From Hippasteria phrygiana (lineage: Eukaryota > Echinodermata > Asteroidea > Valvatida > Goniasteridae), in contig JAZGUH010000105.1 in the NCBI GenBank assembly GCA_037893225.1, positions 682,001 through 746,000 of the forward strand: 64,000 bases of DNA. The letters run 5' to 3'. The notes under the pieces are model-generated. The model was not told the origin of the DNA. It did no database searches and saw only the letters and a list, made by a program, of their open reading frames with translations. Shown here piece after piece: positions 2,108 to 64,000 of the stretch. The position numbers were made by a program, and so were the translations under genes. The first letter of the stretch is position 1; each line of letters starts with the position of its first letter.

Positions 2108-2112
2108 GTAAT

Positions 2113-12664: not shown

Positions 12665-15016
12665 CTAGACGGACGGTGTTTGTGGACAAACACAGGGCTG
12701 TTTCGTTTTTTTTTTTTTTTAGTTTGGATGTGAAATGTGAATACAATAAATTAAACTTCGTCAAACAATCGCGCTCCTGTCAGTTTGCTTTGTTAGACTT
12801 TGAAAATAATTAAAGTTGTTTGTAATAGTCACTTGTGATGACGTCATCATAACATAATGTACATTTTCATCTGTAAACTTGCTGACCTACCTAGATATTA
12901 CATTTAAAATAATCGAACTTGTACTTTTGTAGATATACAATGTATGGCTTTAAAAACTGCCCCTTTAAGATAACGTCACGTGACATGTGATGACGTCATC
13001 ATAACGTCACGTCAATTTTCATCTATAAACCTGCTTGCCTACCCGACTATATATTACATTTCAAATAAATCGGACCTGTACTTTTGTAGATTTATGGCTT
13101 CGAAAAATGCCCCTTTAAGATAATGACACGAAACAAGTGATGACGTAATCATGACATCATAAAAAAAATTATTTAAAATACCTACTGGGCTACCTAGATA
13201 TTACTTTTCAACTTAATCGGACTTGTACTTTTGTTTATATATGGCTTCAAAAACTGCACCTTTAAGATGACGTCATGTGACATGTGATGACATCATAATA
13301 ATGTCATGTCAATTTTCATCTATAAACCTATTGGGCTACCTAGATATTACTTTTCAACTTAATCGGACTTGTACTTTTGTTTATGGCTTCAAAAACTGCC
13401 CCTTTAAGATGACGTCACGTGACGTGTGATGACATCATCATCATAATGTCATGTCAATTTTCGTCCATAAACCTGCAGACCTACCTGGATATTACATTTC
13501 AACTTAATCGAACTTGTACTTTTGTTTATATATGGCTTCAAAAACTGCCCCTTTAAGATGACGTCACGTGACATGTGATGACGTCATCATAACATCATGT
13601 CAATGTTCATTTATAACACCCGGTGGCATACCTAGATATTACGTTTCAACTTAATCGGACTTGTACTTTTGTAGATATATGGCTTCGAAAAAATGCCCCT
13701 TTAAGATGACGTCACGTGACATGTGATGACGTCATCATGACGTAGAAGTTCGGCACACATTGTGAGCAGTTGGTGTAAGTGTCTGCCAAGTTTAAAAGTA
13801 GCCAAAGTGGCCGGTAAGAAAGAAAACGTTTACAAATGCTATGTGCAATATTCTAGCGACTTGAAAAAAGAATTTTTTTTATGACGTCATCATGACGTCA
13901 CACAATTTGCGCTTTTTATGGCATATCTTTGAGACATACCAAACCTATAACAAAAAGAATTTTGAAAATATCTTGTTTTGTTCGCTAGATATATTGAAAA
14001 GACTGTTACGATTCTAAAACTTCAAAAATTTAGCGACTTGAAAAAAGACTAGAAATCAACCCCTTTTATAAACAGCAAGCACAAAATACCCATGGTTATC
14101 AGCCCTTCCCAGAATTCCTTTGTGTTATATTGAATTTGGTCTAAATTTTGAAATGGCTCCTATTTCTTACTTGAGTGAGCCACGATCATGAAATTTTGGA
14201 ATTAGGTACAGGAAAATTCAATATATACATTTTTGTAATCGGATTGACCCTTACATGCGTTTAAAAAAAAAGATTTGTTGATGACGTCATCATGACGTCA
14301 CACAATTTTCGCCATTTAGGGCATATCTTTGAGACATACCAAAGCTGTAACAAAAATAATTTTGAAAATATCTTGTTTTGTTCGCTAGATATATTGAAAA
14401 GAATGTTACGATTTTAAAACTTCAAAAATTCAGCGACTTGAAAAAAGACTAGAAATCAACCCCTTTTATAAACAGCAAGCTCATAATAGCCATGGTTATC
14501 AGCCCGTCCCAGAATTCCTTTGTGTTATATTGAATTTGGTCTAAATTTTGAAATGGCTGTCATTTCTTACTTGAGTGAGCCACGATCATGAAATTTTGGA
14601 ATTGGGTACAGCAAAATTCAATATATACATTTTTGTAATCAGATTGACCCTTACATGCGTTAAAAAAAAAAAGCATTTTTGATGACGTCATCATGACGTC
14701 ACACAATTTTCGCTTTTTAAGGCATATCTTTGAGACATACCAAAGCTATAAAAAAAAGAATTTTGAAAATATCTTGTTTTGTTCGCTAGATATAATTTAA
14801 TGAATGTTACGATTTTCAAAATTCAAAAATTCATAAAAAATCACGTGATGACGTCATCATGACGTAAAAGTTCGGCATGCATTCTGAGCAGTTGGTCTGA
14901 GTGTCTGTTAAATTTAAAGGCAATCGGCTGCATAAAAGTAGCCAAAGTGCCTGGCAGAAAGAAATCGTGTACAAACGCTATGGGCAAAAAGTCTGAAAAA
15001 GAAAAAAAAAAAGAAA
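12665..15016. mobile_element. Array unit U1 (2.35 kb) of CRE-palindrome element
   Basis: The left junction is A-run, CTAG (12665-12668), an 18-bp hairpin GTGTTTGTGGACAAACAC (12676-12693), GGGCTGTTTCG and a T-run. The first ~1.1 kb repeats a ~150-bp module (CTACCTAGATATTAC, CTTAATCGGACTTGTACTTTTG, ATGGCTTC, CCCCTTTAAG, then CRE/E-box palindromes). The second half is a ~400-bp module (GGCATATCTTTGAGACATACC, GTTCGCTAGATATATTG, ACTTGAGTGAGCCACGATCATG). The right end is CTATGGGCAAAAAGTCTGAAAAAG plus an A-run. Confidence 0.7.
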
Positions 15017-17944
15017 CTAGAGCCAATGGGAGGTGTTTGTGGACAAACACAGGGCTGTTTCGTTTTTGTTTTTTTATTTTTTGGATGTGAAATGAGAATA
15101 CAATAATTTAAGTTTGTCAAACAATCGCGCTGCTGCCAGTTTTCTTTGTTAGACTTTGAAAATAATTAAAGTTGTTTGTAATAGTCACTTGTGATGACGT
15201 CATCATAACGTAATGTACATTTTCATCTGTAAACTTGCTGACCTACCTAGATATTACATTTAAAATAATCGAACTTGTACTTTTGTAGATATACAATGTA
15301 TGGCTTTAAAAACTGCCCCTTTAAGATAACGTGACGTGACATGTGATGACGTCATCATAACGTCACGTCAATTTTCATCTATAAACCTGCTTGCCTACCC
15401 GACTATATATTACATTTCAAATAAATCGGACCTGTACTTTTGAAGATATATGGCTTTGAGAAAAATGCCCCTTTAAGATAATGACACGAAACGAGTGATG
15501 ACGTAATCATGACATCAATAATTTTGTTATTTAAAATACCTACTGGGCTACCTAGATATTACTTTTGAACTTAATCGGACTTGTACTTTTGTTTATATAT
15601 GGCTTCAAAAACTGCACCTTTAAGATGACGTCATGTGACATGTGATGACATCATAATAATGTCATGTCAATTTTCATCTATAAACCTATTGGGCTACCTA
15701 GATATTACTTTTCAACTTAATCGGACATGTACTTCTTAATATATATGGCTTCAAAAACTGCCCCTTTAAGATGACGTCACGTAACATGTGATGACGTCAT
15801 CATAACGTCATGTCAATTTCCATCTATAACACCCGGTGGCATACCTAGATATTACGTTTCAACTTAATCGGACTTGTACTTTTGTAGATATATGGCTTCG
15901 AAAAAATGCCCCTTTAAGATGGCGTCACGTGACATGTGATGACATCATCATGACGTAAAAGTTCGCCACACGTTGTGAGCAGTTGGGGTAAGTGTCTGCC
16001 AAGTTTAAAAGTAGCCAAAGTGGCCAGTAAGAAAGAAAACGTTTACAAATGCTAAGGGCAATAATCTAGCGAGTGCCCCTTTAAGATGACACCACGTGAC
16101 ATGTTATGACTTGATCATAACGTCATGTCAATGTTCATCTATAACACCCGGTGGCATACCTAGATATTACGTTCCAACTTAATCGGACTTGTACTTTTGT
16201 AGATATATGGCTTCGAAAAATGCCCCTTTAAGATGACGTCACGTGACATGTGATGACGTCATCACGACGTAAAGGTTCGGCACACATTGTGAGCAGTTGG
16301 GGTAAGTGTCTGCCAAGTTTAAAAGTAGCCAATGTGGCCGGTAAGAAAGTAAACGTTTACAAATGCTATGGGCAATATTCTATCGACTTGAAAAAATAAT
16401 TTTTTTATGACGTCATCATGACGTCACACAATTTTCGCTTTTTAGGGCATATCTTTGAGACATACCAAAGCTATAACAAAAAGAATTTTGAAAATATCTT
16501 GTTTTGTTCGCTAGATATAGTGAAAAGAATGTTACGATTATAAAACTTCAAGAATTCAGCGACTTGAAAAAAGACTAGAAATCAACCCCTTTTATAAACA
16601 GCAAGCTCATAATAGCTATGGTTATCAGCCCGTCCCAGAATTCCTTTGTGTTATATTGAATTTGGTCTAAATTTTGAAATGGCTGTCATTTCTTACTTGA
16701 GTGAGCCACGATCATGAAATTTTGGAATTGGGTACAGAAAAATACAATGTATACATTTTTGTAATCGGATTGACCCTTACATGCGTTAAAAAAAACACAT
16801 ATTTTTGATGACGTCATCATGACGTCACACAATTTTCGCCTTTTAGGGCATATCTTTGAAACATACCAAAGCTATAACAAAAAGAATTTTGAAAATATCT
16901 TGTTTTGTTCGCTAGATATATTGAAAAGAATGTTACGATTTTAATACTTCAAAAATTCAGCGACTTGAAAAAAGACTAGAAATCAACCCCTTTTATAAAC
17001 AGCAAGCTCATAATAGCCATGGTTATCAGCCCGTCCCAGAATTCCTTTGTGTTATATTGAATTTGGTCTAAATTTTGAAATGGCTGTCATTTCTTACTCG
17101 AGTGAGCCACGATCATGAAATTTTGGAATTGGGTACAGAAAAATACAATGTATACATTTTTGTAATCGGATTGACCCTTACATGCGTTAAAAAAAAACAT
17201 ATTTTTGATGACGTCATCATGACGTCACACAATTTTCGCCTTTTAGGGCATATCTTTGAAACATACCAAAGCTATAACAAAAAGAATTTTGAAAATATCT
17301 TGTTTTGTTCGCTAGATATATTGAAAAGAATGTTACGATTTTAATACTTCAAAAATTCAGCGACTTGAAAAAAGACTAGAAATCAACCCCTTTTATAAAC
17401 AGCAAGCTCATAATAGCCATGGTTATCAGCCCGTCCCAGAATTCCTTTGTGTTATATTGAATTTGGTCTAAATTTTGAAATGGCTGTTATTTCTTACTTG
17501 AGTGAGCCACGATCATGAAATTTTGGAATTGGGTACAGCAAAATTCAATATATACATTTTTGTAATCAGATTGACCCTTACATGCGTTAAAAAAAAAAAG
17601 CATTTTTGATGACGTCATCATGACGTCACACAATTTTCGCTTTTTAAGGCATATCTTTGAGACATACCAAAGCTATAAGAAAAAGAATTTTGAAAATATC
17701 TTGTTTTGTTCGCTAGATATAATTTAATGAATGTTACGATTTTCAAAATTCAAAAATTCATAAAAAATCACGTGATGACGTCACCATGACGTAAAAGATC
17801 GGCATGCATCCTGAGCAGTTGGTCTAAGTGTCTGTTAAGTTTAAAGGCAATCGGCTGCATAAAAGTAGCCAAAGTGCCTGGCAGAACGAAAACGTGTACA
17901 AAGTCTATGGGCAAAAAGTCTGAAAAAGAAAAAAAAAAAAAAAA
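15017..17944. mobile_element. Array unit U2 (2.93 kb)
   Basis: The left hairpin is at 15033-15050 and the modules have the same order as U1. It contains a direct 400-bp duplication: 16801-17200 and 17201-17600 align without offset and are nearly identical. The right end again reads CTATGGGCAAAAAGTCTGAAAAAG plus an A-run. Confidence 0.7.
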
Positions 17945-21456: not shown

Positions 21457-23877
21457 CTAGAGCTTTAGTGTTTGTGGACAAACACAGGGCTGTTTCGTTT
21501 TGGTTTTTTTTGGTAGTTTGATTCTTATTCTTGAGATTTCATTGGTGGATAAAATATCTCGTTTTATGGTCGTCTAGGTCAAGCAATCACGTGCTTATTC
21601 ATAATCTTTTAAGAAATGTGAGCATACAAGCAGTTGATGACCATGATTACGTCATCAGACGTCACACATTTTTCACATTTATATTTAAGTGTGTATGACC
21701 TAAAAATATATTACAAAAATAATTATACAAAATTGTTTAAAATTCATGTTAGATACCACGTTTCAACTTAATCGGACTTGTACTTCTTAATATATATGGC
21801 TTCAAAAACTGCCCCTTTAAGATGACGTCACGTAACATGTGATGACGTCATCATAATGTAATGTCAATTTTCATCTATAAACCTACTAGGCTACCCAGAT
21901 ATTACTTTTCAACTTAATCGAACTTGTACTTTTGTAGATATATGGCTTCGAAAAAATGCCCCTTTAAGATGACGTCACGTGACATGTGATGACATCATCA
22001 TGACGTAAAAGTTTGGCACACGTTGTGAGCAGTTGGGGTAAGTGTCTGCCAAGTTTAAAAGTAGCCAAAGTGAACGGTAAGAAAGAAAACGTTTACAAAT
22101 GCTAAGGGCAATAATCTAGCGAGTGCCCCTTTAAGATGAAACCACGTGACATGTTATGACTTGATCATAACGTTATGTCAATGTTCATCTATAACACCCG
22201 GTGGCATACCTAGATATTACGTTCCAACTTAATCGGACTTGTACTTTTGTAGATATATGACTTCGAAAAATGCCCCTTTAAAGATGACGTCACGTGACAT
22301 GTGATGACGTCACCATGACGTAAAAGTTCGGCACACATTGTGAGCAGTTGGGGTAAGTGTCTGCCAAGTTTAAAAGTAGCCAAAGTGGCTGGTAAGAAAG
22401 AAAAAAATTACAATTGCTATGGGCAATATTCTAGCGACTTTAAAAAAAGAATTGTTTTATGACGTCATCATGACGTCACACAATTTTCGCTTTTTAGGGC
22501 ATATCTTTGAGACATACCAAAGCTGTAACAAAAATAATTTTGAAAATGCCTTGTTTTGTTCGCTAGATATATTGAAAAGAATGTTACGATTTAAAAACTT
22601 CAAAAATTTAGCGACTTGAAAAAAGACTAGAAATCAACCCCCTTTTATAAACAGCAAGCACATAATAGCCATGGTTATCTGCCCGTCCCAGAATTCCTTT
22701 GTGTTATATTGAATTTGGTCTAAATTTTGAAATGGCTGTTATTTCTTACTTGAGTGAGCCACGATCATGAAATTTTGGAATCAGGGAGAGGAAAATTCAA
22801 TATATACATTTTTGTAATCGGATTGACCCTTACATGCGTTTAAAAAAAGAAATGTTTTGATGACGTCATCATGACGTCACACATTTTCTCCCTTTTAGGG
22901 GATATCTTTGAGACATACCAAAGCTATAACAAAAAGAATTTTGAAAATATATTGTTTTGTTCGCTAGATATATTGAAAACAATGTTACGATTTTAAAATT
23001 TCAAAAATTCATAAAAAGTCACGTGATGACGTCATTATGACCTCATTTTGGATTTTGCATGCTAGTGACAGTATCTACCTACCCACCACTTTTCATGACG
23101 ATCGGACTTATCCTTATATATGTTTTAAAAAATCACACTTTTGATGACGTCATCATGACGTCACACATTTTTTCCCTTTTAGGGCATATCTTTGAGACAT
23201 ACCAAAGCTATCACAAAAAAAAAATTGAAAATATCGTGTTTTGTTCGCTAGATATATTGAAAAGAATGTTACGATTTTAAAACTTCAAAAATTTAGCGAC
23301 TTGAAAAAAGACTAGAAATCAACCCTTTTATAAACAGCAAGCGCATAATAGCCATGGTTATCTGCCCGTCCCAGAATTCCTTTGTGTTATATTGAATTTG
23401 GTCTAAATTTTGAAATGGCTCTTATTTCTTACTTGAGTGAGCCACGATCATGAAATTTTGGAATTAGGTACAGAAAAATTCAATGTATACATTTTTGTAA
23501 TCGGATTGACCCTTACATGCGTTAAAAAAAAAACACATTTTGGATGACGTCATCATGACGTCGCACAGTTTTCGCTTTTTAGGGCATATCTTTGAGACAT
23601 ACCAAAGCTGTAACAAAAAGAATTTTGAAAATATCTTGTTTTGTTCGCTAGATATATTGAAAAGAATGTTACGATTTTCAAATTTCAAAAATTCATAAAA
23701 AATCACGTGATGACGTCATCATGACGTAAAAGATCGGCATACATTCTGAGCAGTTGGTCTAAGTGTCTGCTAAGTTTAAATGCAATCGGTTGCTTAAAAG
23801 TAGCCAAAGTGCCGGTCAGAAAGAAAACGTGTACAAATGCTATGGGCAAAAGTCTGAAAAAGAAGAAGAAAAAAATA
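21457..23877. mobile_element. Array unit U4 (2.42 kb) with helicase fragment
   Basis: The hairpin is at 21468-21485. A Pif1-helicase-derived fragment follows at about 21519-21650, then both module types. It is nearly identical in layout and sequence to U5 and U7, which share the junction CTAGAGCTTTA and the same internal landmarks at matching offsets. Confidence 0.75.
21519..21650 (+). pseudogene. Pif1 helicase fragment in U4
   Basis: It aligns with the intact ORF at about 50697-50830, around the Walker B motif. Shared words are TCAATGGTGGAT (here TCATTGGTGGAT), GGTCAAGCAATCACGT and AAATGTGAGCATAC. Indels break the frame. The similarity ends at GTTGATGACCATGAT, which runs directly into a CRE-type palindrome. 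Confidence 0.85.
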
Positions 23878-26297
23878 CTAGAGCTTTAGTGTTTGTGGAC
23901 AAACACAGGGCTGTTTCGTTTTGGTTTTTTTTGGTAGTTTGATTCTTATTCTTGAGATTTCAATGGTGGATAAAATATCTCGTTTTATGGTCGTCTAGGT
24001 CAAGCAATCACGTGCTTATTCATAATCTTTTTAGAAATGTGAGCATACAAGCAGTTGATGACCATGATTACGTCATCAGACGTCACACATTTTTCACATT
24101 TATATTTAAGTGTGTATGACCTAAAAATATATTACCAAAATAATTATACAAAATTGTTTAAAATTCATGTTAGATACCACGTTTCAACTTAATCGGACTT
24201 GTACTTCTTAATAGATATGGCTTCAAAAACTGCCCCTTTAAGATGACGTCACATAACATGTGATGACGTCATCATAATGTAATGTCAATTTTCATCTATA
24301 AACCTACTAGGCTACCTAGATATTACTTTTCAACTTAATCGGACTTGTACTTTTGTAGATATATGGCTTCGAAAAAATGCCCATTTAAGATGACGTCACG
24401 TGACATGTGATGACATCATCATGACGTAAAAGTTTGGCACACGTTGTGAGCAGTTGGGGTAAGTGTCTGCCAAGTTTAAAAGTAGCCAAAGTGAACGGTA
24501 AGAAAGAAAACGTTTACAAATGCTAAGGGCAATAATCTAGCGAGTGCCCCTTTAAGATGAAACCACGTGACATGTTATGACTTGATCATAACGTTATGTC
24601 AATGTTCATCTATAACACCCGGTGGCATACCTAGATATTACGTTCCAACTTAATCGGACTTGTACTTTTGTAGATATATGACTTCAAAAAATGCCCCTTT
24701 AAAGATGACGTCACGTGACATGTGATGACGTCACCATGACGTAAAAGTTCGGCACACATTGTGAGCAGTTGGGGTAAGTGTCTGCCAAGTTTAAAAGTAG
24801 CCAAAGTGGCTGGTAAGAAAGAAAAAATTTACAATTGCTATGGGCAATATTCTAGCGACTTTAAAAAAAGAATTGTTTTATGACGTCATCATGACGTCAC
24901 ACAATTTTCGCTTTTTAGGGCATATCTTTGAGACATACCAAAGCTGTAACAAAAATAATTTTGAAAATGCCTTGTTTTGTTCGCTAGATATATTGAAAAG
25001 AATGTTACGATTTTAAAACTTCAAAAATTTAGCGACTTGAAAAAAGACTAGAAATCAACCCCTTTTATAAACAGCAAGCACATAATAGCCATGGTTATCT
25101 GCCCGTCCCAGAATTCCTTTGTGTTATATTGAATTTGGTCTGAATTTTGAAATGGCTGTTATTTCTTACTTGAGTGAGCCACGATCATGAAATTTTGGAA
25201 TCAGGGAGAGGAAAATTCAATATATACATTTTTGTAATCGGATTGACCCTTACATGCGTTTAAAAAAAGAAATGTTTTGATGACGTCATCATGACGTCAC
25301 ACATTTTCTCCCTTTTAGGGGATATCTTTGAGACATACCAAAGCTATAACAAAAAGAATTTTTAAAATATCTTGTTTTGTTCGCTAGATATATTGAAAAC
25401 AATGTTATGATTTTAAAATTTCAAAAATTCATAAAAAGTCACGTGATGACGTCATTATGACCTCATTTTGGATTTTGCATGCTAGTGACAGTATCTACCT
25501 ACCCACCACTTTTCATGACGATCGGACTTATCCTTATATGTGTTTTAAAAAATCACACTTTTGATGACGTCATCATGACGTCACACATTTTTTCCCTTTT
25601 AGGGCATATCTTTGAGACATACCAAAGCTATCACAAAATTTTTTTTGAAAATATCGTGTTTTGTTCGCTAGATATATTGAAAAGAATGTTACGATTTTAA
25701 AACTTCAAAAATTTAGCGACTTGAAAAAAGACTAGAAATCAACCCTTTTATAAACAGCAAGCACATAATAGCCATGGTTATCTGCCCGTCCCAGAATTCC
25801 TTTGTGTTATATTGAATTTGGTCTAAATTTTGAAATGGCTCTTATTTCTTACTTGAGTGAGCCACGATCATGAAATTTTGGAATTAGGTACAGCAAAATT
25901 CAATATATACATTTTTGTAATCAGATTGACCCTTACATGCGTTAAAAAAAAAATGCATTTTTGATGACGTCATCATGACGTCGCACAGTTTTCGCTTTTT
26001 AGGGCATATCTTTGAGACATACCAAAGCTGTAACAAAAAGAATTTTGAAAATATCTTGTTTTGTTCGCTAGATATATTGAAAAGAATGTTACGATTTTCA
26101 AATTTCAAAAATTCATAAAAAATCACGTGATGACGTCATCATGACGTAAAAGATCGGCATACATTCTGAGCAGTTGGTCTAAGTGTCTGCTAAGTTTAAA
26201 TGCAATCGGTTGCTTAAAAGTAGCCAAAGTGCCGGTCAGAAAGAAAACGTGTACAAATGCTATGGGCAAAAGTCTGAAAAAGAAGAAGAAAAAAAAA
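23878..26297. mobile_element. Array unit U5 (2.42 kb), near-identical to U4
   Basis: The hairpin is at 23889-23906 and the helicase fragment at about 23941-24068. Differences from U4 are scattered single bases and small homopolymer changes. Confidence 0.75.
23941..24068 (+). pseudogene. Pif1 helicase fragment in U5
   Basis: The same decayed fragment as in U4, with TTTCAATGGTGGATAAAAT and the same junction into the CRE palindromes. Confidence 0.85.
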
Positions 26298-37531: not shown

Positions 37532-37539
37532 TTTGGAAA

Positions 37540-37762
37540 GAATGTTATAAGACGCCTGATTGTTTCTGTGCTTTTCACTGAATGCACTTGTTAAATACAC
37601 AACTTTTTCTCTTCAACATTTTGTTTTCAGGCTTGTATTGGAGTAACTTGCCTCTCAAATTTGAATCTTTATTAATATTATGTGATATGTTCTTGATAAA
37701 AATGCATGTTGACATTGTGGCACGTAGGAAGCAATAAAAATAATTCTTTGAAAACAAGACCG
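37540..37762 (+). repeat. Direct repeat B (copy 1), terminal-exon-like
   Basis: Matches 58200-58373. It holds an acceptor-like TTGTTTTCAG ending at 37630 and an AATAAA at 37733-37738, the layout of a 3'-terminal noncoding exon. Copy 1 is longer because of two short insertions upstream of the acceptor. Confidence 0.85.
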
Positions 37763-40278: not shown

Positions 40279-40289
40279 TTTATGGTTAA

Positions 40290-42004: not shown

Positions 42005-42089
42005 ATAATGAGCAATCATGTACATTGCCTTTCAATGGGAAGTTGTTCTCAGTCCTAGATTTGTATATTATTAAATATTTGTTGGTATG

Positions 42090-42132
42090 ACTATGTTTAT
42101 TTAGGATTTGTTTTTGTTTTTATCAACAGAAA
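42090..42132 (+). promoter_or_regulatory. Likely 3' splice acceptor before the transposase start
   Basis: A pyrimidine-rich tract TTTGTTTTTGTTTTTATCAACAG ends at about 42129, immediately before AAAATG. This suggests an upstream noncoding or coding exon. The ATG at 42133 sits at the exon start, so the true initiator may be further upstream or downstream. Confidence 0.45.
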
Positions 42133-51100: not shown

Positions 51101-52437
51101 AGTATAATACACAAACTCTTTATGCAAAGTGTTCTGAATGTGTATGTGTTTTTGCTAAAGATTTCCAGAAAGATCCAAAAAGTGGGAAAATGAAACCGGC
51201 AGGCAAATCAGTCAAGAAATCTTCCTATACTAATTTACCTGAGTTACTATGGCTTGGAGTTGGTGCTAGAGTAATGCTTACAAGGAATCTTGATGTATAT
51301 GATGGACTTGTTAATGGAGTGTTTGGAACTGTCTGTGACATAGTGACATTACCTAATCAACAATCTCCAAAGTGTGTGAAAGTTAAATTCGATGATGAGC
51401 ATGTTGGGTTAAAGTTGAAAAAACAGTCATCTATTGATCGTACCGATGCAGTTTGTATTGAAATGGTAGAAGAAAATGTGACTAACCAGTGTGTACGGCA
51501 TCAGTTCCCTCTCAAGTTAGCTTGGGCATGTACAGCTCACAAAGTGCAAGGAATGACTACAAAAAAGGCAGTTGTATGTTTGGAGCGTACGTTTTCAGCA
51601 GGACAAGCTTATGTTAGTTTGAGCAGAGTGGTATCACTGAATGGCCTTGTGATAAAAGGGTTCGATGAAAAATATATTTATTGTAATGAAGGTGTGGCTA
51701 AGGCAATGAATGAAATGTTACCGTATATTTACGAGAATGATAACGGCAGTGATAAAAATGAAATAAAGTCTCACAAAAGTTATAGCACATGTATTGCTAT
51801 GCATAATATTCAAGGCTTATGTGCACATTTCATGGATTTGACAAATAATAACGAAATGATGTCATGTGATTTCATGTGCTTGACAGAAACATGGACCGAT
51901 AGAGACTTCAGTTGCAATATGGATATGAATGATTGTAAATGGTATCATCAGCCAAGATATATGTCATATGATAACACCAGCCGTCTTACTTGCATGTTGA
52001 AAGATCAGTGCCATGGAGGTGTAGCTGTGTGTGGCAAAAAGGAGAAAGTATTCAGCAGGCTAAATTTACCAATCCATAATCTTGAGTATATTGCATTTCA
52101 GATAATTTCAAATATGTCATTAGCTGTTGTTATAATTTATCGACCTGCATCATACACACTGCATGAATTTCTTGAGATTCTCCAAATGTTGCTAAATGAG
52201 CTACATAAGATTTCAAACAAGTGCATTGTAATGGGTGATTTCAATGAAGATATTATACACAAGGAATCTTCTGTTAGTAAACTGATGTCTAGTCATGGAT
52301 ATAAGCAATGTGTAGGTGATGCCACAACTGAAAGAGGTACTTTGCTTGACCATGTTTATGTTAGGAATATAGATATTAACATTGAAATTTGTCCAACGTA
52401 TTATAGCTACCACGAAGCAGTCATTGTTCAGTTCTGA
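42133..52437 (+). CDS. Helentron/Helitron-like Rep-helicase with OTU peptidase and EEP endonuclease
   Basis: An uninterrupted 3434-residue ORF for a rolling-circle transposase. Order: about 167-232, eight-residue repeats (MLPKPYET) then a basic stretch NKRRRRF; 540-589, PHD finger (CWLC...CDGC..WYH..C...C..C); 834-963, C76-like peptidase signature (C834, D961-x-H963); 1150-1276, OTU peptidase (D1155-G-N-C1158, H1272-Y-D); 1470-1682, 17-residue repeats; about 1715-1900, Cys-rich and DUF6570-like; 1914-1956, acidic; 2025-2230, Helitron-like N domain with the HUH motif H2222-T-H2224; Y2415 and Y2419, paired catalytic tyrosines; 2750-3190, Pif1 helicase (Walker A GGAGTGKS with K2777, Walker B D2860-E2861, GDFYQLPP, AWACTAHKVQGMT); 3217-3434, EEP endonuclease (E3252, D3369-x-N3371, D3406-H3407). 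HUH plus Pif1 defines Helitrons, and a C-terminal EEP is the Helentron hallmark. The family moves by rolling-circle replication in the nucleus. The SDH motif of EEP reads SYH here. The first ~150 residues look less conserved and may not be translated. Confidence 0.95.
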   Translation: MKYYQVNHNERRAAMCRMVMERSSRRCMFPLSVIVMLSDSSSISSPCSQFSIYTHPMRCSSAISFLLGALSGEPSPPGENSNALRFASPQGSLSTRSEGISPKSDPPTCGCTLPCEADVPWLQQRLCDLAGQTQTGEPVDITVSRTVVEQTACLTTGKSDVATKDVMLPEPYETMLPKPYETMLPKPYETMLSEPCETMLPKSCETMLPKPCYIMLAKPCGTILTKPCERVMTRNKRRRRFTKQKKTCNVHVQFDKSLLYNVDISTGIQTCFDNDGILNKGYVETQKMGKWLEKVGHMQRKRLEKLTPKRLCRYKRMMICFNEKKYCAGGKILEYVVEEFQWKRNRRTGKVSRKAQRRRNCKESYNRRRGGKRVEQRMSKDERCVHEYAQKIIFSHTWSTLKTVLHKKQYWNCSKRGQKNESEECDNRKRSGKRMELRMTKDEQGFLEKSTKMYSHSQIGAVDEIVDNLNEVHKSDKRQMKNAGHVTCIKKHVEDGHALVRNSGKVNNRQTVKSRSDHTNSNDTCKIRPSNVGDISEKQCWLCDLSIKASESNVQCDGCDIWYHVNCTNLKKKEHILANKSFTWLCLRCGKTTYCKFLLNDLGIPTDKNVYEMTIQERCTDSKCVAMKTYTDRPCREDTGQRYEKHSVSEPRNNESCFTCRSRIEERTRNNWASTKGPTVLLREQSGGYSLRSRKVKSTEESNTDKKEPDRIREIEGTYDVEMQKVYRQSSRKRSSRKRKALESFERELKVNEKRMTHEIEEMDDNVPLTTKVNFPYSCASLRSKQEEFPVDVVLQTEQDKQRDVSCVTLPEKILQGSFHQGHHKFGCHSGKQCVANGLSCMLMSRLKKLRDWTCFDMDSALNTGNELYGFLSRSCTINHDYLLVTELPNELDLLNHHFSIKFNDSVCGAFGKDFNLAEFDMIPINCALEQTLQQYYACFITFHGNTFVVIAQDGMYYIFDSHSRNQQGCQVSEGRSLLKCVTAWQDVYRYCTDLARSMNLSNTEQFEITGASVWLDDEVRQDADGTTQEEGHLLLGSSEHSKEIDGDSTDSRVLRGSCSGLSSTRSDMPNNIKEDNNGSLYGMSCNNKSDGGSDVEIESVTQTQGFKFVPLTYGSRNALCRFHRMGHVSLDRNEISDKCEEMGRPNSVKKIKGDGNCFFRAISFAVSGTEINHMQLRMATVNHLLKNGDKFNGFLRQGFVNVEEYVMRQRLFDCGTWATEVEIMAMAHMLRADIYTYEDGNNWYVFSASTFEREAVKLDEAIYLYHMQRIHYDVVLSVHELARESAKGQEKGHEEKALETDSCLKTASSDKKLELKYEKEVSFETIKPKNKDLKRKKQKRTNITLQQKKKREKAKERYDTKINEVVMNSKGIQQSKSNCKDQKKCRSRNSNIVDEKLKHKKSCNDKDKATKKIYNQKNYQKNADRKKKSLHIKYHSDINFQTERLEAQRRSYGLYENSEEKKNSVKRRYHKNVKYRESKINHGKAKYVNNAEYREKLINSGKTKYSDNAEYREKLISSGKTKYCDNAEYREKLISSGKTKYSDNAEYREKLISSGKTKYSDNAEYREKLISSGKTKYSDNAEYRERLIKQQSIKYKTKYHEDVDYRKKEINRVQCKYHDNVSYRNKLIANIKKKYRCIVSYRTKLLNFEKCKYHSDTNYRRNLIKHGKEKYKRDDGYRKKVAVMNRARTVNKKEKRRSICFVTNKFKADISKGPEYVCASCHKLLFKKQVLKCHKLKYKNQKCITEKYLHTCSRKCESKCLIRESSRSCLWICYTCHRKLLANRVPGEANVNNLTLIDIPEELACLNTLEEHLIARNVSFMKMIALPKGGQHGVRGPVVCVPSNITDTVKVLPRAENENQMIRVKLKRKLNYKGYYQYQFVNKEYVESALSYLKHNNKWYHDIEINTDWDNPVCDKDNDEIDQHESDVKEKEKVETNDDMDNSDEETEDDRLRGIALDSCLQPINLGQEILDQYFDDVLCVAPCEGNSPIRILMEKGNEAKCFPALFPTGQPTFDDDRDVKLTLCRYMHNRLMNVDNRFAKNTQYIFYAQYLSEIQKVMSSVSIALRKGSDKMRSGENVNASMINDRDQLNDILKSDSGYKFLKPIRGTPPYWQATQKDVLAMIRQLGIPTWFCSFSAADMRWPEVINTILRQQGDSRDVKDLDWNEKCTILRSNPVTAARMFDQRFHTFLKDVILSRAEPIGKVKDYFYRVEFQQRGSPHTHCLFWIENAPKLESNSNKDVIKFIDKYISCKLPSKEEDEELNEIISHVQLHSRRHSKSCKKKRTECRFNFPRPPSERTFITEPDMPTDDKKKVDKKDTQERNDAKELLQSIWTAIQKSENEHMTTSELFASINVTQADFEKANDVLSSKASIIHKRKPQDAWVNLYNPALMRCWNANMDIQYICDAYACVAYVVSYMSKAEREMGVLLSQAQAEAEKGNLDARQSMKEIGCVYLHNREVSAQEAVYRVCNLRLKEGSRKVEFIPVGENPIKMSLPLSVIQNRCNDDCDDDSIWMTSRVDRYLARPNIDEFETMCLATFCSDYRVIYNNMAKTSRSRVYELKNGLGHVQKRSRTDPAVIRFPRFSVAKYPEKYYQSILQLYLPYRIDVQLKPEQFETYEQFYQNGVVRMRGSLQSVINIVESNRALYEANAESVDEAEELLNKFGPQEDAWALIAPETEKDRLECKRQHQPEIDDSDNEFEIPDLKSKKDNDVKCSIEPHALNVSKQEAMNLLRCLNAKQKKVFYKVRQWCLEKVSGKNPEPFHVFVTGGAGTGKSHLIKCIYYEATRLFATMMENPDDVSVLLTAPTGVAAYNIHGATIHSALSIGINVKLPYQPLGEEKINTLRNKLRQLQILIVDEVSMVDQKMLFYIHGRLRQVKQSRNHNPFGNVSILAVGDFYQLPPVKGKSLYQTAVTGDLWNDIFVKVELTEIMRQKEDAQFAEVLNRLRIRRRREHLQDNDIRLLKSRETGEDWTDAVHIYPCNKQVDQYNTQTLYAKCSECVCVFAKDFQKDPKSGKMKPAGKSVKKSSYTNLPELLWLGVGARVMLTRNLDVYDGLVNGVFGTVCDIVTLPNQQSPKCVKVKFDDEHVGLKLKKQSSIDRTDAVCIEMVEENVTNQCVRHQFPLKLAWACTAHKVQGMTTKKAVVCLERTFSAGQAYVSLSRVVSLNGLVIKGFDEKYIYCNEGVAKAMNEMLPYIYENDNGSDKNEIKSHKSYSTCIAMHNIQGLCAHFMDLTNNNEMMSCDFMCLTETWTDRDFSCNMDMNDCKWYHQPRYMSYDNTSRLTCMLKDQCHGGVAVCGKKEKVFSRLNLPIHNLEYIAFQIISNMSLAVVIIYRPASYTLHEFLEILQMLLNELHKISNKCIVMGDFNEDIIHKESSVSKLMSSHGYKQCVGDATTERGTLLDHVYVRNIDINIEICPTYYSYHEAVIVQF
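42631..42828 (+). repeat. 24-bp coding repeats (MLPKPYET)
   Basis: About eight in-frame copies of an eight-residue unit, M-L-P-K-P-Y/C-E-T, lie directly before a basic, probably nuclear-localising stretch. The first four are nearly identical at the DNA level. Confidence 0.9.
46540..47178 (+). repeat. 51-bp coding repeats (17-residue KY..NAEYREKLI units)
   Basis: About a dozen in-frame 17-residue units fit the pattern SGKTKYSDNAEYREKLI. The central five (about 46615-46880) are almost identical in DNA; the outer ones diverge but keep K-Y, Y-R and a basic residue. The tract is strongly charged and probably helical. It sits between the OTU and the DUF6570-like region. Confidence 0.95.
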
Positions 52438-52866: not shown

Positions 52867-52924
52867 AAAGATTTTCAACAAAACTGAGCACATTTGTTGC
52901 GAAACATGCAATATTCTTCTGTTT

Positions 52925-54710
52925 AACAAGGGATGGCGACCATCACTGACTATAACTGTGAATCACCGATGCCAGACTCACAACTCAGTGTGGCACATAT
53001 CACGGGTTCTTCAGTTCAGCAAGGGATGGCGAGCATCACTCACTGTAACTGTGGAACACCGCTGCCACACTCACAGCTCAGTGTGGCACATCACCAGTCC
53101 TTCTGTTCAGGAAGGGATGGCGATCATCACTCACTGTAACTGTGGAACACCGCTGCCACACTCACAGCTCAGTGTGGCACATCACCAGTCCTTCTGTTCA
53201 GCAAGGGATGGCGAGCATCACTCACTGTAACTGTGGAACACCGCTGCCACACTCACAGCTCAGTGTGGCACATCACCAGTCCTTCTGTTCAGCAAGGGAT
53301 TGGGACCATCATTCACTGTAACTGTGGAACACCGCTGCCACACTCATAGCTCAGTGTGGCACATCACCAGTCCTTCTGTTCAGCAAGGGATGGCGATTAT
53401 CACTCACTGTAACTGTGGAACACCGCTGCCACACTCACAGCTCAGTGTGGCACATCACCAGTCCTTCTGTTCAGCAAGGGATGGCAACCATCACTCACTG
53501 TAACTGTGGAACACCGCTGCCACACTCATAGCTCAGTGTGGCACATCACCAGTCCTTCTGTTCAGCAAGGGATGGCGATTATCACTCACTGTAACTGTGG
53601 AACACCGCTGCCACACTCGCAGCTCAGTGTGGCAACATCACCAGTCCTTCTGTTCAGCAAGGGATGGCAACCATCACTCACTGTAACTGTGGAACACCGC
53701 TGCCACACTCGCAGCTCAGTGTGGCAACATCACCAGTCCTTCTGTTCAGCAAGGGATGGCAACCATCACTCACTGTAACTGTGGAACACCGGTGCCACAC
53801 TCACAGCTCAGTGTGGCACATCACCAGTCCTTCTGTTCAGGAAGGGATGGCGATCATCACTCACTGTAACTGTGGAACACCGCTGCCACACTCACAGCTC
53901 AGTGTGGCACATCACCAGTCCTTCTGTTCAGCAAGGGATGGCGATCATCACTCACTGTAACTGTGGAACACCGCTGCCACACTCACAGCTCAGTGTGGCA
54001 CATCACCAGTCCTTCTGTTCAGCAAGGGATGGCGATCATCACTCACTGTAACTGTGGAACACTGCTGCCACACTCACAGCTCAGTGTGGCAACATCTCCA
54101 GTCCTTCTGTTCAGCAAGGGATGGCAACAATCATTCACTGTAACTGTGGAACACCGCTGCCACACTAACAGCTCAGTGTGGCACATCACCAGTCCTTCTG
54201 TTCAGCAAGGGATGGCGATCATCACTCACTGTAACTGTGGAACACCGCTGCCACACTCACAGCTCAGTGTGGCACATCATAAGTTCTTGTGTTCAGCAAA
54301 GGGATGCTGACTATTACTCACTAACTGTGGAACACTGCTGCCACTGCCATAGCTCAGTATGACACATCACCAGTTCTTCTGTATAATAAGGGATGATGAC
54401 CATCACTAACTGGAACTTTGAAATACTGCTGCCACACTCACAACTCAGTGTGGCACATCACAGGTTTTTGTCTTCAACAAGGGATGGCGACCATCATTCA
54501 CAGTAAATGTGGAACAACGCTGCCACACTCATAGCATGGTGCCATATCACCAGTCCTTCTGTACAATAAGGGATTGTGACCATCACTCACTATAACTGTG
54601 CAACACTGCTGCCACACTCACAGCTCAGTGTGGTACATCCCAAGTTCTTATGTTCAACAAAGGATGACTATTACTCATTATAATTGCAGCACTGTAGCTA
54701 CATGTACACT
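52925..54710. repeat. 91-bp minisatellite, ~19 copies
   Basis: Unit landmarks are CAAGGGATGGCGATCATCAC, CTGTAACTGTGGAACACCGC and CAGCTCAGTGTGGCACATCA, then CCAGTCCTTCTGTTCAG. Copies from about 53010 to 54290 are nearly identical; those after 54300 are progressively diverged. CAGCTCAGTGTGG variants with an extra A mark a sub-block around 53630-53740. The repeated 67-123-codon open frames are not evidence of a gene. Confidence 0.96.
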
Positions 54711-58199: not shown

Positions 58200-58373
58200 A
58201 GAATGTTATAAGAATTGTTAAATACACAACTTTTTGTTTTCAGGCTTGTATTGGAGTAACTTGCCTCTCAAATTTGAATCTTTATTAATATTATGTGATA
58301 TGTTCTTGATAAAAATGCATGTTGACATTGTGGCACATAGGAAGCAATAAAAATAATTCTTTGAAAACAAGAC
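58200..58373 (+). repeat. Direct repeat B' (copy 2), terminal-exon-like
   Basis: Copy of 37540-37762, with the acceptor-like TTTTCAG ending at 58243 and AATAAA at 58346-58351. It lies downstream of the transposase in the same orientation and could supply its poly(A) site. Confidence 0.85.
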
Positions 58374-58554
58374 CATTGAATGAGTAGAGTTATTTAATGA
58401 AGTCTTACTGGTATATTTCTATTACAGTATATAATTGAAAGAAAATAGTCTTATTAACCCTAATAGTCCTGAATTCTCCAATTTTAATATGATTTTCCAC
58501 ACACCCTAGGGAGGTACAGTTAAATGCAAGGAAAGTCCGACATAATCTTGCTGG

Positions 58555-59021
58555 TCAAAAGTTTCTCTGCCACAATTGACAAACCTGTCAACTTTTTAAC
58601 GCAAGAGGGCGGTAGTACTTTTAAAAAAAATACTCCTCTGGTTGGCTGTATACCAAACTTAACTAACAATTTAAGGCAAACACACACATAGAGCGGTGAG
58701 TGAGAGCGAAGCATACCCCCTGTATTGTTTGAAGACGGGAAAACCAGTAATTAACGCAACACACCTTAAAGAATGGACGGCTGAAACAAACTTTATTTGA
58801 GCAGTAGAAAATCACAGAACGCGTTTTTTAATATACATTGGGAATTATAAACTGGAAATTAAATGTAATGTAATCCAAATGACGATTGAGACAAAATTTA
58901 CTTGAGTGGAACAAAATACAACTATTTTTGAAAATTATGTTAAATCCTCCCAAATCATAGAACGTAAAACTTCTTCACCAATGACCTAAAAAACCTATTT
59001 CAAAAAGAATTACAATCAGAA
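58555..59021. repeat. Direct repeat A' (copy 2)
   Basis: Copy of 36989-37531 lacking ~80 bp. Its right end grades directly into array sequence (TTAGCATGTTCAGTTGATGAG). Confidence 0.9.
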
Positions 59022-60157
59022 GTTCGAAATTAGCATGTTCAGTTGATGAGATAGGCCCTATAGCTTAAAGATTCAAAAGTTTAAAAATTACTATAAAATC
59101 ATATGATGACGTCACCATAACGTCACATCAATTTTCATATACAACACATGCCGGCCTACAAGCATTCCAGATACAAATTTTTGTAAGGTAATCCTACTGG
59201 GCTACCTAGATATTACTTTTCAACTTAATCGGACTTGTACTTTTGTAGATATATGGCTTCGAAAAATGCCCCTTTAAGATGACGTCACGTGACATGTGAT
59301 GACGTCATCATGACGTAAACGTTCGGCACACATTGTGAGCAGTTGGGGTAAGTGTCTGCCAAGTTTAAAAGTAGCCAAAGTGGTCGGTAAGAAAGAAATA
59401 TTCTAGCGACTTGAAAAAAAAATAATAATTATGACGTCATCACGACGTCACACAATTTTCGCTTTTTACGGCATATCTTTGAGACATACCAAAGCTGTAA
59501 CAAAAATAATTTTGAAAATATCTTGTTTTGTTCGCTAGATATATTGAAAAGAATGTTACGATTTTAAAACTTCAAAAATTCAGCGACTTGAAAAAAGACT
59601 AGAAATCAACCCCTTTTATAAACAGCAAGCACATAATAGCCATGGTTATCTGCCCGTCCCAGAATTCCTTTGTGTTATATTGAATTTGGTCTAAATTTTG
59701 AAATGGCTGTCATTTCTTACTTGAGTGAGCCACGATCATGAAATTTTGGAATTGGGTACAGGAAAATTCAATATATACATTTTTGTAATCGAATTGACCC
59801 TTACATGCGTTTACAAAAAAACATATTTTTGATGACGTCATCATGACGTCAAACAATTTTCGCTTTTTAGGGCATATCTTTGAGACATACCAAAGCTATA
59901 ACAAAAAGAATTTTGAAAATATCTTGTTTTGTTCGCTAGATATATTGAAAAGAATGTTACGATTTTCAAATTTCAAAAATTCATAAAAAATCACGTGATG
60001 ACGTCATCATGACGTAAAAGTTCGGCATGCATTCTGAGCAGTTGGTCTAAGTGTCTGTTAAGTTTAAAGGCAATCGGCTGCATCAAAGTAGCAAAAGTGC
60101 CTGGTAGAAAGAAAACGTGTACAAATGCTATGGGCAAAAAGTCTGAAAAAGAAGCAA

Positions 60158-60189
<32 letters not shown>

Positions 60190-60292
60190 ATCTTAACGAA
60201 AACAAGGGCTGTTTCGTAAAACTACGAAACAGCCAAAAAAAAAAAAATATTAACGAAAACAAAGGCTGTTTCGAAAAACTTTCGAAACAGCC

Positions 60293-60323
<31 letters not shown>

Positions 60324-60439
60324 ATCTTAACGAAAACAAGGGCTGTTTCGTAAAACTACGAAACAGCCAAAAAAAAAAAATCTTAACGAAAACAAGGGCT
60401 GTTTCGAAAAACTTTCGAAACAGCCAAAAAAAAAGAAAA
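59022..60439. mobile_element. Array unit U12, right part
   Basis: CRE-array modules resume and end with four fold-backs of the GGCTGTTTCG...CGAAACAGCC type (about 60205-60427) separated by A-runs, then the CTAG at 60440. Confidence 0.7.
60195..60427. repeat. Cluster of four fold-backs at the U12 right end
   Basis: The same element as at 27868-28038. The centres alternate TAAAACTA and AAAAACTTT, each keeping the stem paired. They are separated by A-runs. Confidence 0.85.
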
Positions 60440-62426
60440 CTAGAGCCAATAGTGTTTGTGGACAAACACAGGGCTGTTTCGGTGTTTTTGTGTAAAATTT
60501 GGTGATTAAAATGAAATTTCAAAATTTTTAATAAAATTAAAAAAATTAACAAATTATAGAAAATTAGCCGATGAGGTCTCATGACGTCACTTCGGCTTCT
60601 GCATGCGGGTGGCAATATCTACATACCCACCAATTTTTATGACGATCGGACCTACCCTTATATGTGTTTCAAAAAAGCATATTTTTGATGACGTCATGAT
60701 GACGTCACACATTTTCCCATTTATGTGAAAGAATATAGGAGCTAACAAAGCTATTACAAAAAGAATTTTGAATTTAGCATGTTCTGTTAAAGAGATATGG
60801 GTTTAAGAAACTTTAAGGTTAAAAAACTTTACAATTACTATAAAATCGTATGATGAGGTCATCATGACGTCACCTCAATTTTCATCTATAACACGTACTT
60901 GTCTACCACCATAGCAGGTTTGAATGCAATCGGACCTACGGTTCTCTAGATATGTGCCCTTGAAAAATGCACCTTTAAGATGACGTCACATGACAAGTGA
61001 TGACGTCATCATGACGTCACTCTTCGGCATAAATTTTCAGCTGAGGGTCTCTGTTTGAGTTAAACCTGATAAAGATCTGAGGTTGTTTAGTGACCAAAGT
61101 GGCTCTTACAAAATTCGTGTACAAAGTCTATGGGATTTGGGATAGAACTAAAAATTCATAGAAAATCAGCCGATGACGTCATCATGACGTCACTTTGGAT
61201 TTTACATGCTAGTGGCACTATCTACCTACCCACCAATTTTCATGACGATCGGACCTATCCTTATATGTGTTTTAAAAAAGCACATTTTTGATGACGTCAT
61301 CATGACGTCACACATTTTCTCCCTTTTAGGGGATATCTTTGAGACATACCAAAGCTATACCAAAAAGAATTTTGAAAATATCTTGTTTTGTTCGCTAGAT
61401 ATATTGAAAAGAATGTTACGATTCCAAAAATTTAAAATTCAGCGACTTGAAAAAAGACTACAAATCAACCCTTTTTATAAACAGCATGCTCATTTAAGCC
61501 ATGGTTATCTGCCCTTCCCAGAATTCCTTTGTGTTATATTGAATTTGGTCTAAATTTTGAAACGGTTCCTATTTCTTACTTGAGTGAGCCACGATCATGA
61601 AATTTTGGAATTCGGTACAGAAAAATACAATGTATACATTTTTGTAATCAGATTGACCCTTACATGCGTTTTAAAAAAATAATATTGTTGATGACGTCAT
61701 CATGACGTCACACAATTTTCGCCATTTAGGGCATATCTTTGAGACATACCAAAGCTGTAACAAAAATAATTTTGAAAATATCTTGTTTTGTTCGCTAGAT
61801 ATATTGAAAAGAATGTTACGATTTTAAAACTTCAAAAATTCAGCGACTTGAAAAAAGACTAGAAATCAACCCCTTTTATAAACAGCAAGCTCATAATAGC
61901 CATGGTTATCAGCCCGTCCCAGAATTCCTTTGTGTTATATTGAATTTGGTCTAAATTTTGAAATGGCTGTCATTTCTTACTTGAGTGAGCCACGATCATG
62001 AAATTTTGGAATTGGGTACAGCAAAATTCAATATATACATTTTTGTAATCAGATTGACCCTTACATGCGTTAAAAAAAAAAAGCATTTTTGATGACGTCA
62101 TCATGACGTCACACAATTTTCGCTTTTTAAGGCATATCTTTGAGACATACCAAAGCTATAAAAAAAAGAATTTTGAAAATATCTTGTTTTGTTCGCTAGA
62201 TATAATTTAATGAATGTTACGATTTTCAAAATTCAAAAATTCATAAAAAATCACGTGATGACGTCATCATGACGTAAAAGTTCGGCATGCATTCTGAGCA
62301 GTTGGTCTGAGTGTCTGTTAAGTTTAAAGGCAATCGGCTGCATAAAAGTAGCCAAAGTGCCTGGCAGAAAGAAATCGTGTACAAACGCTATGGGCAAAAA
62401 GTCTGAAAAAGAAAAAAAAAAAGAAA
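60440..62426. mobile_element. Array unit U13 (1.99 kb)
   Basis: The hairpin is at 60452-60469. The first ~1 kb carries the U3/U6-type modules (CTACCTACCCACCAATTTT, GACGATCGGACC) and the second half the ~400-bp module. Its last ~370 bp are nearly identical to the end of U1. Confidence 0.7.
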
Positions 62427-63617
62427 CTAGAGCCAATAGTGTTTGTGGACAAACACAGGGCTGTTTCGGTGTTTTTGTGTAAAATTTGGTGATTAAAATG
62501 AAATTTCTAAATTTTTTATAAAATTAAAAAAATTAACAAATTATAGAAAATTAGCCGATGAGGTCTCATGACGTCACTTCGGCTTCTGCATGCGGGTGGC
62601 ACTATCTACATACCCACCAATTTTTATGACGATCGGACCTACCCTTATATGTGTTTCAAAAAAGCATATTTTTGATGACGTCATGATGACGTCACACATT
62701 TTCCCATTTATGTGAAAGAATATAGGAGCTAACAAAGCTATTACAAAAAGAATTTTGAATTTAGCATGTTCTGTTAAAGAGATATGGGTTTAAGAAACTT
62801 TAAGGTTAAAAAACTTTACAATTACTATAAAATCGTATGATGAGGTCATCATGACGTCACCTCAATTTTCATCTATAACACGTACTTGTCTACCACCATA
62901 GCAGGTTTGAATGCAATCGGACCTACGGTTCTCTAGATATGTGCCCTTGAAAAATGCACCTTTAAGATGACGTCACATGACAAGTGATGACGTCATCATG
63001 ACGTCACTCTTCGGCATAAATTTTCAGCTTAGGGTCTCTGTTTGAGTTAAACCTGATAAAGATCTGAGGTTGTTTAGTGACCAAAGTGGCTCTTACAAAA
63101 TTCGTGTACAAAGTCTATGGGATTTGGGATGGAACTAAAAATTCATAGAAAATCAGCCGATGACGTCATCATGACGTCACTTTGGATTTTACATGCTAGT
63201 GGCACTATCTACCTACCCACCAATTTTCATGACGATCGGACCTATCCTTATATGTGTTTTAAAAAAGCACATTTTTGATGACGTCATCATGACGTCACAC
63301 ATTTTCTCCCATTTAGGGGATATCTTTGAGACATACCAAAGCTATACCAAAAAGAATTTTGAAAATATCTTGTTTCGTTCGCCAGATATATTGAAAAGAA
63401 TGTTACGATTTTAAAATTTCAAAAATTCATAAAAAATCACGTGATGACGTCATCATGACGTAAATGTTCGGCATACATTCTGAGTAGTTAGTCTAAGTGT
63501 CTGCCAAGTTTAAAGCCAATCGGCACCATAAAAGTAGCCAAAGTGCCGGTAAGAAAGAAAACGTGTACAAATGCTATGGGCATTTGGCTGAAAAAGAAAA
63601 AAAAAAAAAAAAGAAAA
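62427..63617. mobile_element. Array unit U14 (1.19 kb), shortened copy of U13
   Basis: The hairpin is at 62439-62456. The first ~950 bp match U13; the unit then ends early in the CATTTGGCTGAAAAAG type of right end also seen in U6. Confidence 0.7.
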
Positions 63618-64000
63618 CTAGAAACTGGTGTTTGTGTACAAACACAGGGCTGTTTCGGGTGTTTTTGTTTTTTTTGTGGGAGTATGATTCTAATTCTTGA
63701 TGAGATATCAATGGTAGATGAAACAAAATCTTGTTTTACATTCAAGCAATTACGTATCCTTAATCATAATTGTTTTGGAAATGTGAGCATACTTGCAGTT
63801 TGTGACCATGATGATGTCATTGTGATGTCACACATTTTGCACATTCATATGTAAGTACCTATCACCTAACAAATGTATTACAAATTGTTTTTTGAAATTA
63901 GCATGTAGGTTTGATGAGATATGGCTTTGGGGTTTAAAAACTTAAAAATTACTAGAAAATCGTATAATGATGTCATCATGACGTCATGTAATTTTTGTCA
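63618..64000. mobile_element. Array unit U15, cut by the window edge
   Basis: The hairpin GTGTTTGTGTACAAACAC is at 63628-63645, followed by another helicase fragment and CRE-type palindromes. Confidence 0.65.
63686..63812 (+). pseudogene. Pif1 helicase fragment in U15
   Basis: This stretch still translates: ILDEISMVDETK and later NHNCFGNVSILAV match the Walker B region of the intact protein (ILIVDEVSMVDQ, NHNPFGNVSILAV). A deletion of ~24 bp removes the residues between. The frame is open from 63543, but upstream of the fragment it is repeat DNA. Confidence 0.88.

Follow-up and report, generated by a model that had tools for sequence, protein, structure and literature searches.

The 64-kb window analysed here (C105:682001-746000 of the 944-Mb Hippasteria phrygiana assembly) holds an autonomous Helentron set within head-to-tail arrays of short units, which are densely studded with the palindrome TGACGTCA; we take the latter to be the CREB/ATF core site (cAMP response element, CRE). 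The arrays are probably gene-less members of the same Helentron family, of the HINE (non-autonomous Helentron) type, which would go back to an old deletion derivative and would have grown by nested self-insertion. The evidence comes from ends and flanking sequence common to the units and the Helentron, from a fragment of the helicase gene carried by six left ends and from a tail seen both empty and filled by a new unit. The principal parts of the window are the following.

12665-36988, + strand: head-to-tail array of gene-less units and left shell, with 164 perfect TGACGTCA
34783-60234, + strand: composite autonomous Helentron, from the left terminus CTAG (34783) to the first right hairpin (60234); boundaries seen in the C584 and C1017 copies, near-identical blocks in C584, C742, C148 and C1017
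36989-59029, + strand: core of the autonomous element, without TGACGTCA (comparison of the core with the rest of the window)
42091-52437, + strand: single open reading frame (ORF) of 3448 aa with PHD, Herpes_teg_N-like, OTU, DUF6570, Helitron_like_N (Rep), PIF1 helicase and C-terminal endonuclease regions (ORF list and Pfam scan)
50697-50828, + strand: helicase stretch matched by the fragments (ILIVDEVSMVD...ILAVGD; blastn and alignment)
59030-64000, + strand: right shell and more array units, with 36 perfect TGACGTCA

Array units are the Helentron without its core

In the ORF, the Pfam domains Helitron_like_N (2043-2240), PIF1 (2751-2954) and Exo_endo_phos (3254-3430) scored above cut-off, and the PHD match scored just below its curated cut-off. 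With Rep, PIF1 helicase and a C-terminal apurinic/apyrimidinic (AP)-type endonuclease in one protein, the predicted product follows the Helentron plan. Relatives at 60-63% identity over the helicase were found in scallop, sea urchin, hagfish and feather star among the best 120 of 631 protein homologues, a set in which the helicase motif was matched in 117 and missed in 3.

The ends of the element were defined as follows.

34783-34822, + strand: left terminus, CTAGAGGCAA followed by a palindrome and AGGGCTGTTTCG (subterminal repeat), from the motif search
35361-35400, + strand: inner left end within the composite, its CTAG damaged (AAATAGAGC; C lost), also present in C584 and C742
60207-60425, + strand: four stacked right-end hairpins, GGCTGTTTCG..CGAAACAGCC, with A-runs between them; the ladder reaches 60425

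Subterminal inverted repeats are present at both ends, as GGCTGTTTCG near the left and CGAAACAGCC at the right, and the palindrome GTGTTTGTGGACAAACAC begins 10 bp from the left terminus. When compared with the Helentron end layout outlined in part of PMC4067079, the palindrome-bearing canonical 3′ end sits to the left of the ORF, which is therefore reversed; ORF reversal is reported for one Drosophila family in the relevant part of PMC4067079 and for some Fusarium elements in that of PMC5148889. A canonical Helitron (5′ TC, 3′ CTRR, insertion between A and T) was rejected: CTAG is found at one end, but GGCTG (on the matching strand) at the other, and insertion occurs within an A-run. Twelve full left-end motifs are present in the window (12676, 15033, 21468, 23889, 28066, 30494, 32807, 34793, 35371, 60452, 62439 and 63628), with a partial one at 26318 bringing the left ends to 13, and further right-end hairpins lie at 27882, 27947, 28010 and 35324. 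Genome-wide, the left-end 30-mer was counted 5,629 times (at most 1 mismatch; control 0) and a helicase 35-mer 41 times (at most 2 mismatches), 37 of these exact.

Measured from left end to left end, the unit 35371-60452 spans 25 kb and holds the core, while the other 11 spacings range from 0.6 to 6.4 kb, seven of them falling at 2.0-2.4 kb. All four units compared (21468, 28066, 30494 and 32807) align to the left shell up to the core border and likewise to the right shell from ~59.2 kb, some array sequence being common to both shells. When the remainder of the window was searched with the core at high sensitivity, nothing turned up beyond the six fragments described below and three weak stretches in 9.1-11.9 kb. 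Since the units align to both shells and the core is absent from the rest of the window, an array unit is the autonomous element minus its 22-kb core. The ORF list of the window contains no frame of at least 150 aa in the arrays, whose tandem repeats measure ~146, ~314 and ~401 bp. Having no coding capacity and the ends of the autonomous partner, the units fit the HINE class, here with satellite-like repeats between the ends. Perfect TGACGTCA occurs 200 times in the window against ~0.7 expected from composition: 164 copies in 12650-36990, 36 in 59030-64000 and none in the core or in 1-12600.

The original prediction had regarded the arrays as tandem non-autonomous relatives of an adjacent Helentron and not as independent satellite DNA. 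Both kinds of end are indeed shared, the units correspond to the shells without the core, and near-identical copies of the element elsewhere carry array sequence along. The word 'adjacent' has to be given up: the Helentron is itself a member of the array, and bears the fragment too (35423). Evidence for the relationship comes less from the fragment, present at a minority of left ends, than from the ends held in common.

Six left ends carry a piece of the family's own helicase gene

A blastn search with 50400-51100 against the window (E at most 0.01) retrieved, besides the query itself, exactly six matches of 120-136 bp, all on the plus strand and all to 50697-50828, at 75.7-84.8% identity (E 4e-39 to 1e-20).

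21520-21640, + strand: helicase fragment, type a (75.7%, E 1e-20)
23941-24061, + strand: helicase fragment, type a (77.2%)
28118-28238, + strand: helicase fragment, type a (77.2%)
30546-30681, + strand: helicase fragment, type b (84.1%)
35423-35558, + strand: helicase fragment, type b, within the left shell of the autonomous element (84.8%, E 4e-39)
63686-63805, + strand: helicase fragment, type c, ILILDEISMVD (76.9%)

The fragments are thus present at 6 of the 13 left ends (12 full, 1 partial) and start 22 bp after the end of the 30-bp left-end motif GTGTTTGTGGACAAACACAGGGCTGTTTCG, or 28 bp in the case of 63686. All six had been predicted, as stretches matching the ORF at about 50697-50830 just behind the terminal hairpin and on one strand, and the search bore this out; the peptide ILDEISMVD, reported for one unit, is contained in the copy at 63686, which reads ILILDEISMVD. 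Their placement in six array units was right for five, the copy at 35423 belonging to the 25-kb unit that holds the Helentron core. None of the seven fragment-free left ends gave a convincing match to other Helentron pieces in a sensitive search against the core. Their best match covered 29 bp at the core edge (E 1e-4; 60452 and 62439), and the idea that other left-end modules are additional Helentron pieces was discarded on this ground.

Relative to the helicase, all six fragments carry an insert at the same position, of 6 nt in 30546, 35423 and 63686 and of 4 nt in 21520, 23941 and 28118; the 4-nt insert of the type a copies looks like a shortened form of the 6-nt one. The left junction common to the fragments is TTTGATTCT, with TATGATTCT at 63686. 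At the right junction, the same in all six, helicase GTTGGTGAT passes into repeat sequence that contains a damaged CRE palindrome and continues into further sequence common to the copies. In the 117 homologues with a matched motif (best 120 of 631), the helicase stretch has the length of that in the window in 112, is shorter in 4 and one residue longer in 1; two extra residues were found in none. Nine further copies elsewhere show the 6-nt insert together with one sequence variant (control 0). The left-junction pattern AGGGCTGTTTCGN{8,32}TTTGATTCT was found 567 times genome-wide (271+296; reversed control 0), a count that leaves out units with other breakpoints, including the 63686 type, since the pattern requires TTTGATTCT. 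TAGTTTGATTCT was read in 97 of 100 listed places out of the 567, its TAG not being required by the pattern. With the insert at one place, both junctions common to all six and the left junction repeated 567 times, a single founding event for the fragment-bearing left end appears likely. This had been proposed from a shared breakpoint, and no differing breakpoint was encountered among the six window copies.

As to the source, three translated fragment peptides (30546, 35423 and 63686) found their best match among 121 Helentron-type proteins in the window ORF, with 66.7% identity for 35423 (60% to the next-best protein) and 54.5% for 63686. In a protein tree of 44 columns the 35423 peptide grouped with the helicase variant of C233, a copy of this family (98/85). 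A foreign Helitron was ruled out as the source by the identity to this Helentron family, and a host PIF1 gene appears unlikely on the same identity, Helentron-type proteins being those compared. Substitutions relative to the window helicase amount to 10-13% (13/130 in 35423, 11/112 in 63686 and 15/117 in 21520). Helicase copies differ from it by 0-2/132 over this stretch, and those retrieved are 98.6-100% identical to the window helicase. The frame is open across the helicase-like part in 30546, 35423 and 63686, and DNA alignment of type a with type b copies showed gaps of 6, 5 and 2 nt. Among the 39 comparable codons of 35423 we counted 9 non-synonymous and 1 synonymous changes, several at motif residues, which we read as decay without coding constraint. 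A selected peptide was ruled out by this 9:1 ratio, by the motif residues hit and by the type a gaps.

Copies on other contigs include the array sequence

Near-identical blocks (99.7-100% overall) were found on C584, C742, C148 and C1017. Starting at 35.5 and 36.0 kb, stretches of 9.9-10.0 kb that take in array sequence match the window at 99.96% identity in C584 and C742; C148, C742 and C1017 are 99.7% identical to it from 50.5 or 50.6 to 60.0 kb. The C584 copy starts flush at the left end 34783, and a row of right hairpins closes the C1017 copy; the flanks beyond (2,985 bp in C584 and 481 bp in C1017) matched neither the window nor the other retrieved loci. From the C584 boundary it would appear that transposition reads past the damaged inner end (AAATAGAGC, 35361) to the intact end at 34783. 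On C1017, eight right-end hairpins stand in a row with changing loops, followed by DNA absent from the window.

The C88 copy is chimeric, its helicase being 99.7% identical to that of the window and its N-terminal half 74-80%. Likewise, the helicases of C88, C400, C174 and C233 (L011, L013, L023 and L027) are 98.6-99.7% identical and their N-terminal halves much more diverged, a pattern that suggests exchange between families.

An insertion site seen empty and filled

60155-60206, + strand: A-rich tail, the insertion target; a unit fills it in C742 and a left end interrupts it in C148, and both the window and C1017 have the empty form

The composite's tail is made up of GTCTGAAAAAGAAGC, then A-runs, TCTTAACGAAAACAAG and a hairpin with the loop GTAAAACTAC. 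It is intact in the window and also in C1017, where one change was seen in the loop. In C742 it is split within an A-run by a complete unit of 2,058 bp, which reads from CTAG to AGCC; beyond the unit come the remainder of the A-run and the same hairpin, and to the left of the insertion 210/210 bases are identical. In C148 another left end interrupts the tail. The orientation is the same in all of these. The C742 insertion lies in sequence that is T-rich on the other strand and shows no target duplication, as read from one filled/empty pair in which a duplication of 1-2 A would be invisible. On the scale of the genome (100 of the 567 fragment places listed), fragment-bearing neighbours less than 30 kb apart were on the same strand in 38/38 pairs, and those more than 200 kb apart in 10/18. 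In the window, left ends and right hairpins follow each other like balanced brackets, two of the closing hairpins (18967 and 21403) being degenerate.

A scheme that would account for these observations starts with an old family member from which most of the coding DNA disappeared, 132 bp of helicase remaining between left end and repeat block. This fragment-bearing left end would have arisen once, decayed and spread, and would have been rejoined to a coding core, probably through recombination in the shells. New copies would insert, on the same strand, directly inward of the resident's right hairpin, into its A-rich tail (T-rich when read on the opposite strand), so that units run head-to-tail and right hairpins pile up. 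Self-insertion may in this way have built whole arrays, one filled site having been compared with its empty form. A bolder version, to which we give an even chance, is that of a self-seeding satellite: each copy would supply a favoured landing site in the form of the A-rich tail next to its right hairpin. Rolling-circle transposition, with copies inserting strand-specifically into one another and damaged inner ends being read through, would then suffice to build oriented, CRE-packed arrays whose core is lost and regained by shell exchange.

Points against and other explanations

Several observations weigh against the scheme of one deletion derivative followed by nested self-insertion. A tree, suggested with the original prediction as a check on a single origin and run on 44 protein columns only, did not recover the two fragments included as one group, and 63686 fell unresolved on a long branch. 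The four-hairpin ladder of the window recurs in the same order in C742, where the upstream unit is ~4% diverged and the composite nearly identical. The ladder may accordingly be part of the element, and the bracket order coincidental; bracket balance as an argument for nesting in the window is weakened by this and is kept as suggestive. In C12 a complete fragment-bearing unit follows a hairpin-less tail, with array sequence next to it instead of the rest of the tail. C155 has a fragment-free left end next to the core, and in C28 the left end, 15 kb away from the helicase, is missing from the fragment-bearing places (by pattern; 100 of 567 listed), so the fragment is no fixed part of the autonomous element. 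No copy with both flanks was seen among the retrieved loci and contig ends cut C584, C148 and C1017; the near-identical contigs could therefore partly be haplotype duplicates. Finally, the evidence fits a deletion origin and a capture of filler DNA alike.

The latter alternative, in which an already gene-less element took up the helicase piece as filler, is in our view somewhat less likely than not. A few bases are common across each junction (GAT at the left and TGA at the right, as judged by eye), some left ends lack the fragment, and gene capture by Helentrons is reported in part of PMC4067079. The orientation and order of left end, helicase, repeats and right end are, on the other hand, those expected of a deletion product, which is weak evidence. 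The arrays might also be concatemers from rolling-circle replication of circles, inserted as a block, as proposed for plant centromeric Helitrons. The same-strand neighbours in 38/38 listed pairs and the right hairpin missing at most junctions would suit such an origin, as would the plant Helitron arrays, in which many 5′ ends accompany a single 3′ end, mentioned in a section of PMC12628747 (citing Xiong et al.). We nonetheless hold it unlikely: C742 presents a single complete unit in a tail that is found empty in the window and C1017, and neighbouring units differ in left-end subtype and divergence, which would not be expected from one circle.

Two further explanations have very little in their favour. 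The internal tandem repeats (~146, ~314 and ~401 bp) could point to independent satellite DNA invaded by Helentron pieces; satellite DNA in the sense of tandem repeats without transposon ends was rejected because element ends bound the units, and this origin becomes highly improbable given a left-end motif present 5,629 times (control 0), ends equal to those of the mobile element and array sequence transported with the core. In favour of a host PIF1 source, the motif II region of PIF1 is conserved in general. Yet derivation of the fragment from host PIF1 or from an unrelated Helitron is, if anything, less credible still, with DNA identity to this family of up to 84-85% and the window ORF as best of 121 Helentron-type proteins. 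We retain descent from a deletion derivative with growth by nested self-insertion as the most likely explanation.

Other features of the core and the window

Direct repeats in the same orientation lie near both core ends (36989-37539 resembles 58555-59029, and 37614-37761 resembles 58227-58374). The block 36989-37761 recurs on the right side in C88, C400, C155, C60 and C174, and in C88 a left end is inserted within its second copy. The ORF contains in-frame tandem repeats of 24 bp (42630-42820) and 54 bp (46589-46900), and a 91-bp minisatellite (52916-54666) lies just downstream of it; a 47-bp minisatellite occupies 4296-7718. The segment 39812-40290, with inverted termini (ggtaatcgttacc...) and an inverted-orientation match in C88 and C174, is probably a small inverted-repeat element.

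To the left of the array, 9103-9291, 9676-9827 and 11791-11881 show inverted matches (68-76%) to the 5′ non-coding part of the element (40.3-41.7 kb), and 9103-9291 also short direct matches to the 5′ non-coding part of the Helentron. The stretches in 9103-11881 may be what is left of an earlier Helentron in the opposite orientation. An open frame of 382 aa with a YqaJ-like recombinase/exonuclease domain lies at 2826-3974.

Relation to known elements and significance

The family shares many traits with described Helentrons and HINE/DINE-1 elements. Parts of Thomas et al. 2014 (PMC4067079) describe a Rep/helicase/endonuclease protein, subterminal inverted repeats, a palindrome near one end and a T-rich target, as well as gene-less relatives with the ends of their partner, tandem repeats in some copies and one family with a minus-orientation ORF; partners of plain and some repeat-bearing HINEs are also described there. 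Unlike in those sections, the core of the autonomous element is here flanked on either side by repeat arrays, and the element has a piece of its own helicase near one end. Cg_HINE of the Pacific oyster (Vojvoda Zeljko et al. 2020, PMC7492417, in part) likewise bears satellite-like central repeats within Helentron-type ends. The oyster elements are presented there without a relatable autonomous partner, whereas here ends, shells and fragment link the two.

FoHeli/Helitron2 of Fusarium, as treated in sections of PMC5148889, has asymmetric terminal inverted repeats, several 5′ ends with one 3′ end and ORF reversal, and some of its elements bear hairpins at both ends; self-insertion and composite elements were proposed for it. 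The Fusarium cases are mostly short 5′ duplications (<200 bp) with one nested example, in contrast to the thousands of left ends, oriented arrays and filled/empty tail pair found here. Several mechanisms of array formation have been proposed, according to part of PMC12628747. The plant centromeric Helitrons (Xiong et al. 2016, as cited in that part) are alike in forming tandem arrays with many 5′ ends, and differ in that theirs are explained by rolling-circle amplification of truncated copies.

Within the sections considered, gene-less Helentrons with partner ends and repeats (PMC4067079), satellite-like central repeats (PMC7492417) and proposed self-insertion with multiple ends (PMC5148889) were thus already known. 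New here is array growth by insertion (the filled tail of C742 against the empty one). In the open-licence literature we found neither a Helentron that bears part of its own helicase at one end nor repeat-bearing units linked in this way to an autonomous partner; in the oyster, the link is left unresolved in the part of PMC7492417 concerned.

Repeat-bearing Helentrons are thought to seed satellite DNA, and the oyster case in that part of PMC7492417 comes without a relatable autonomous element. Since partner, gene-less relatives, a decaying marker and a filled/empty pair occur here in one genome, growth by insertion and growth by concatemers can be directly counted against each other. With 200 CRE cores in the window and 5,629 left ends, their total in the genome is probably very large and could matter for gene regulation.

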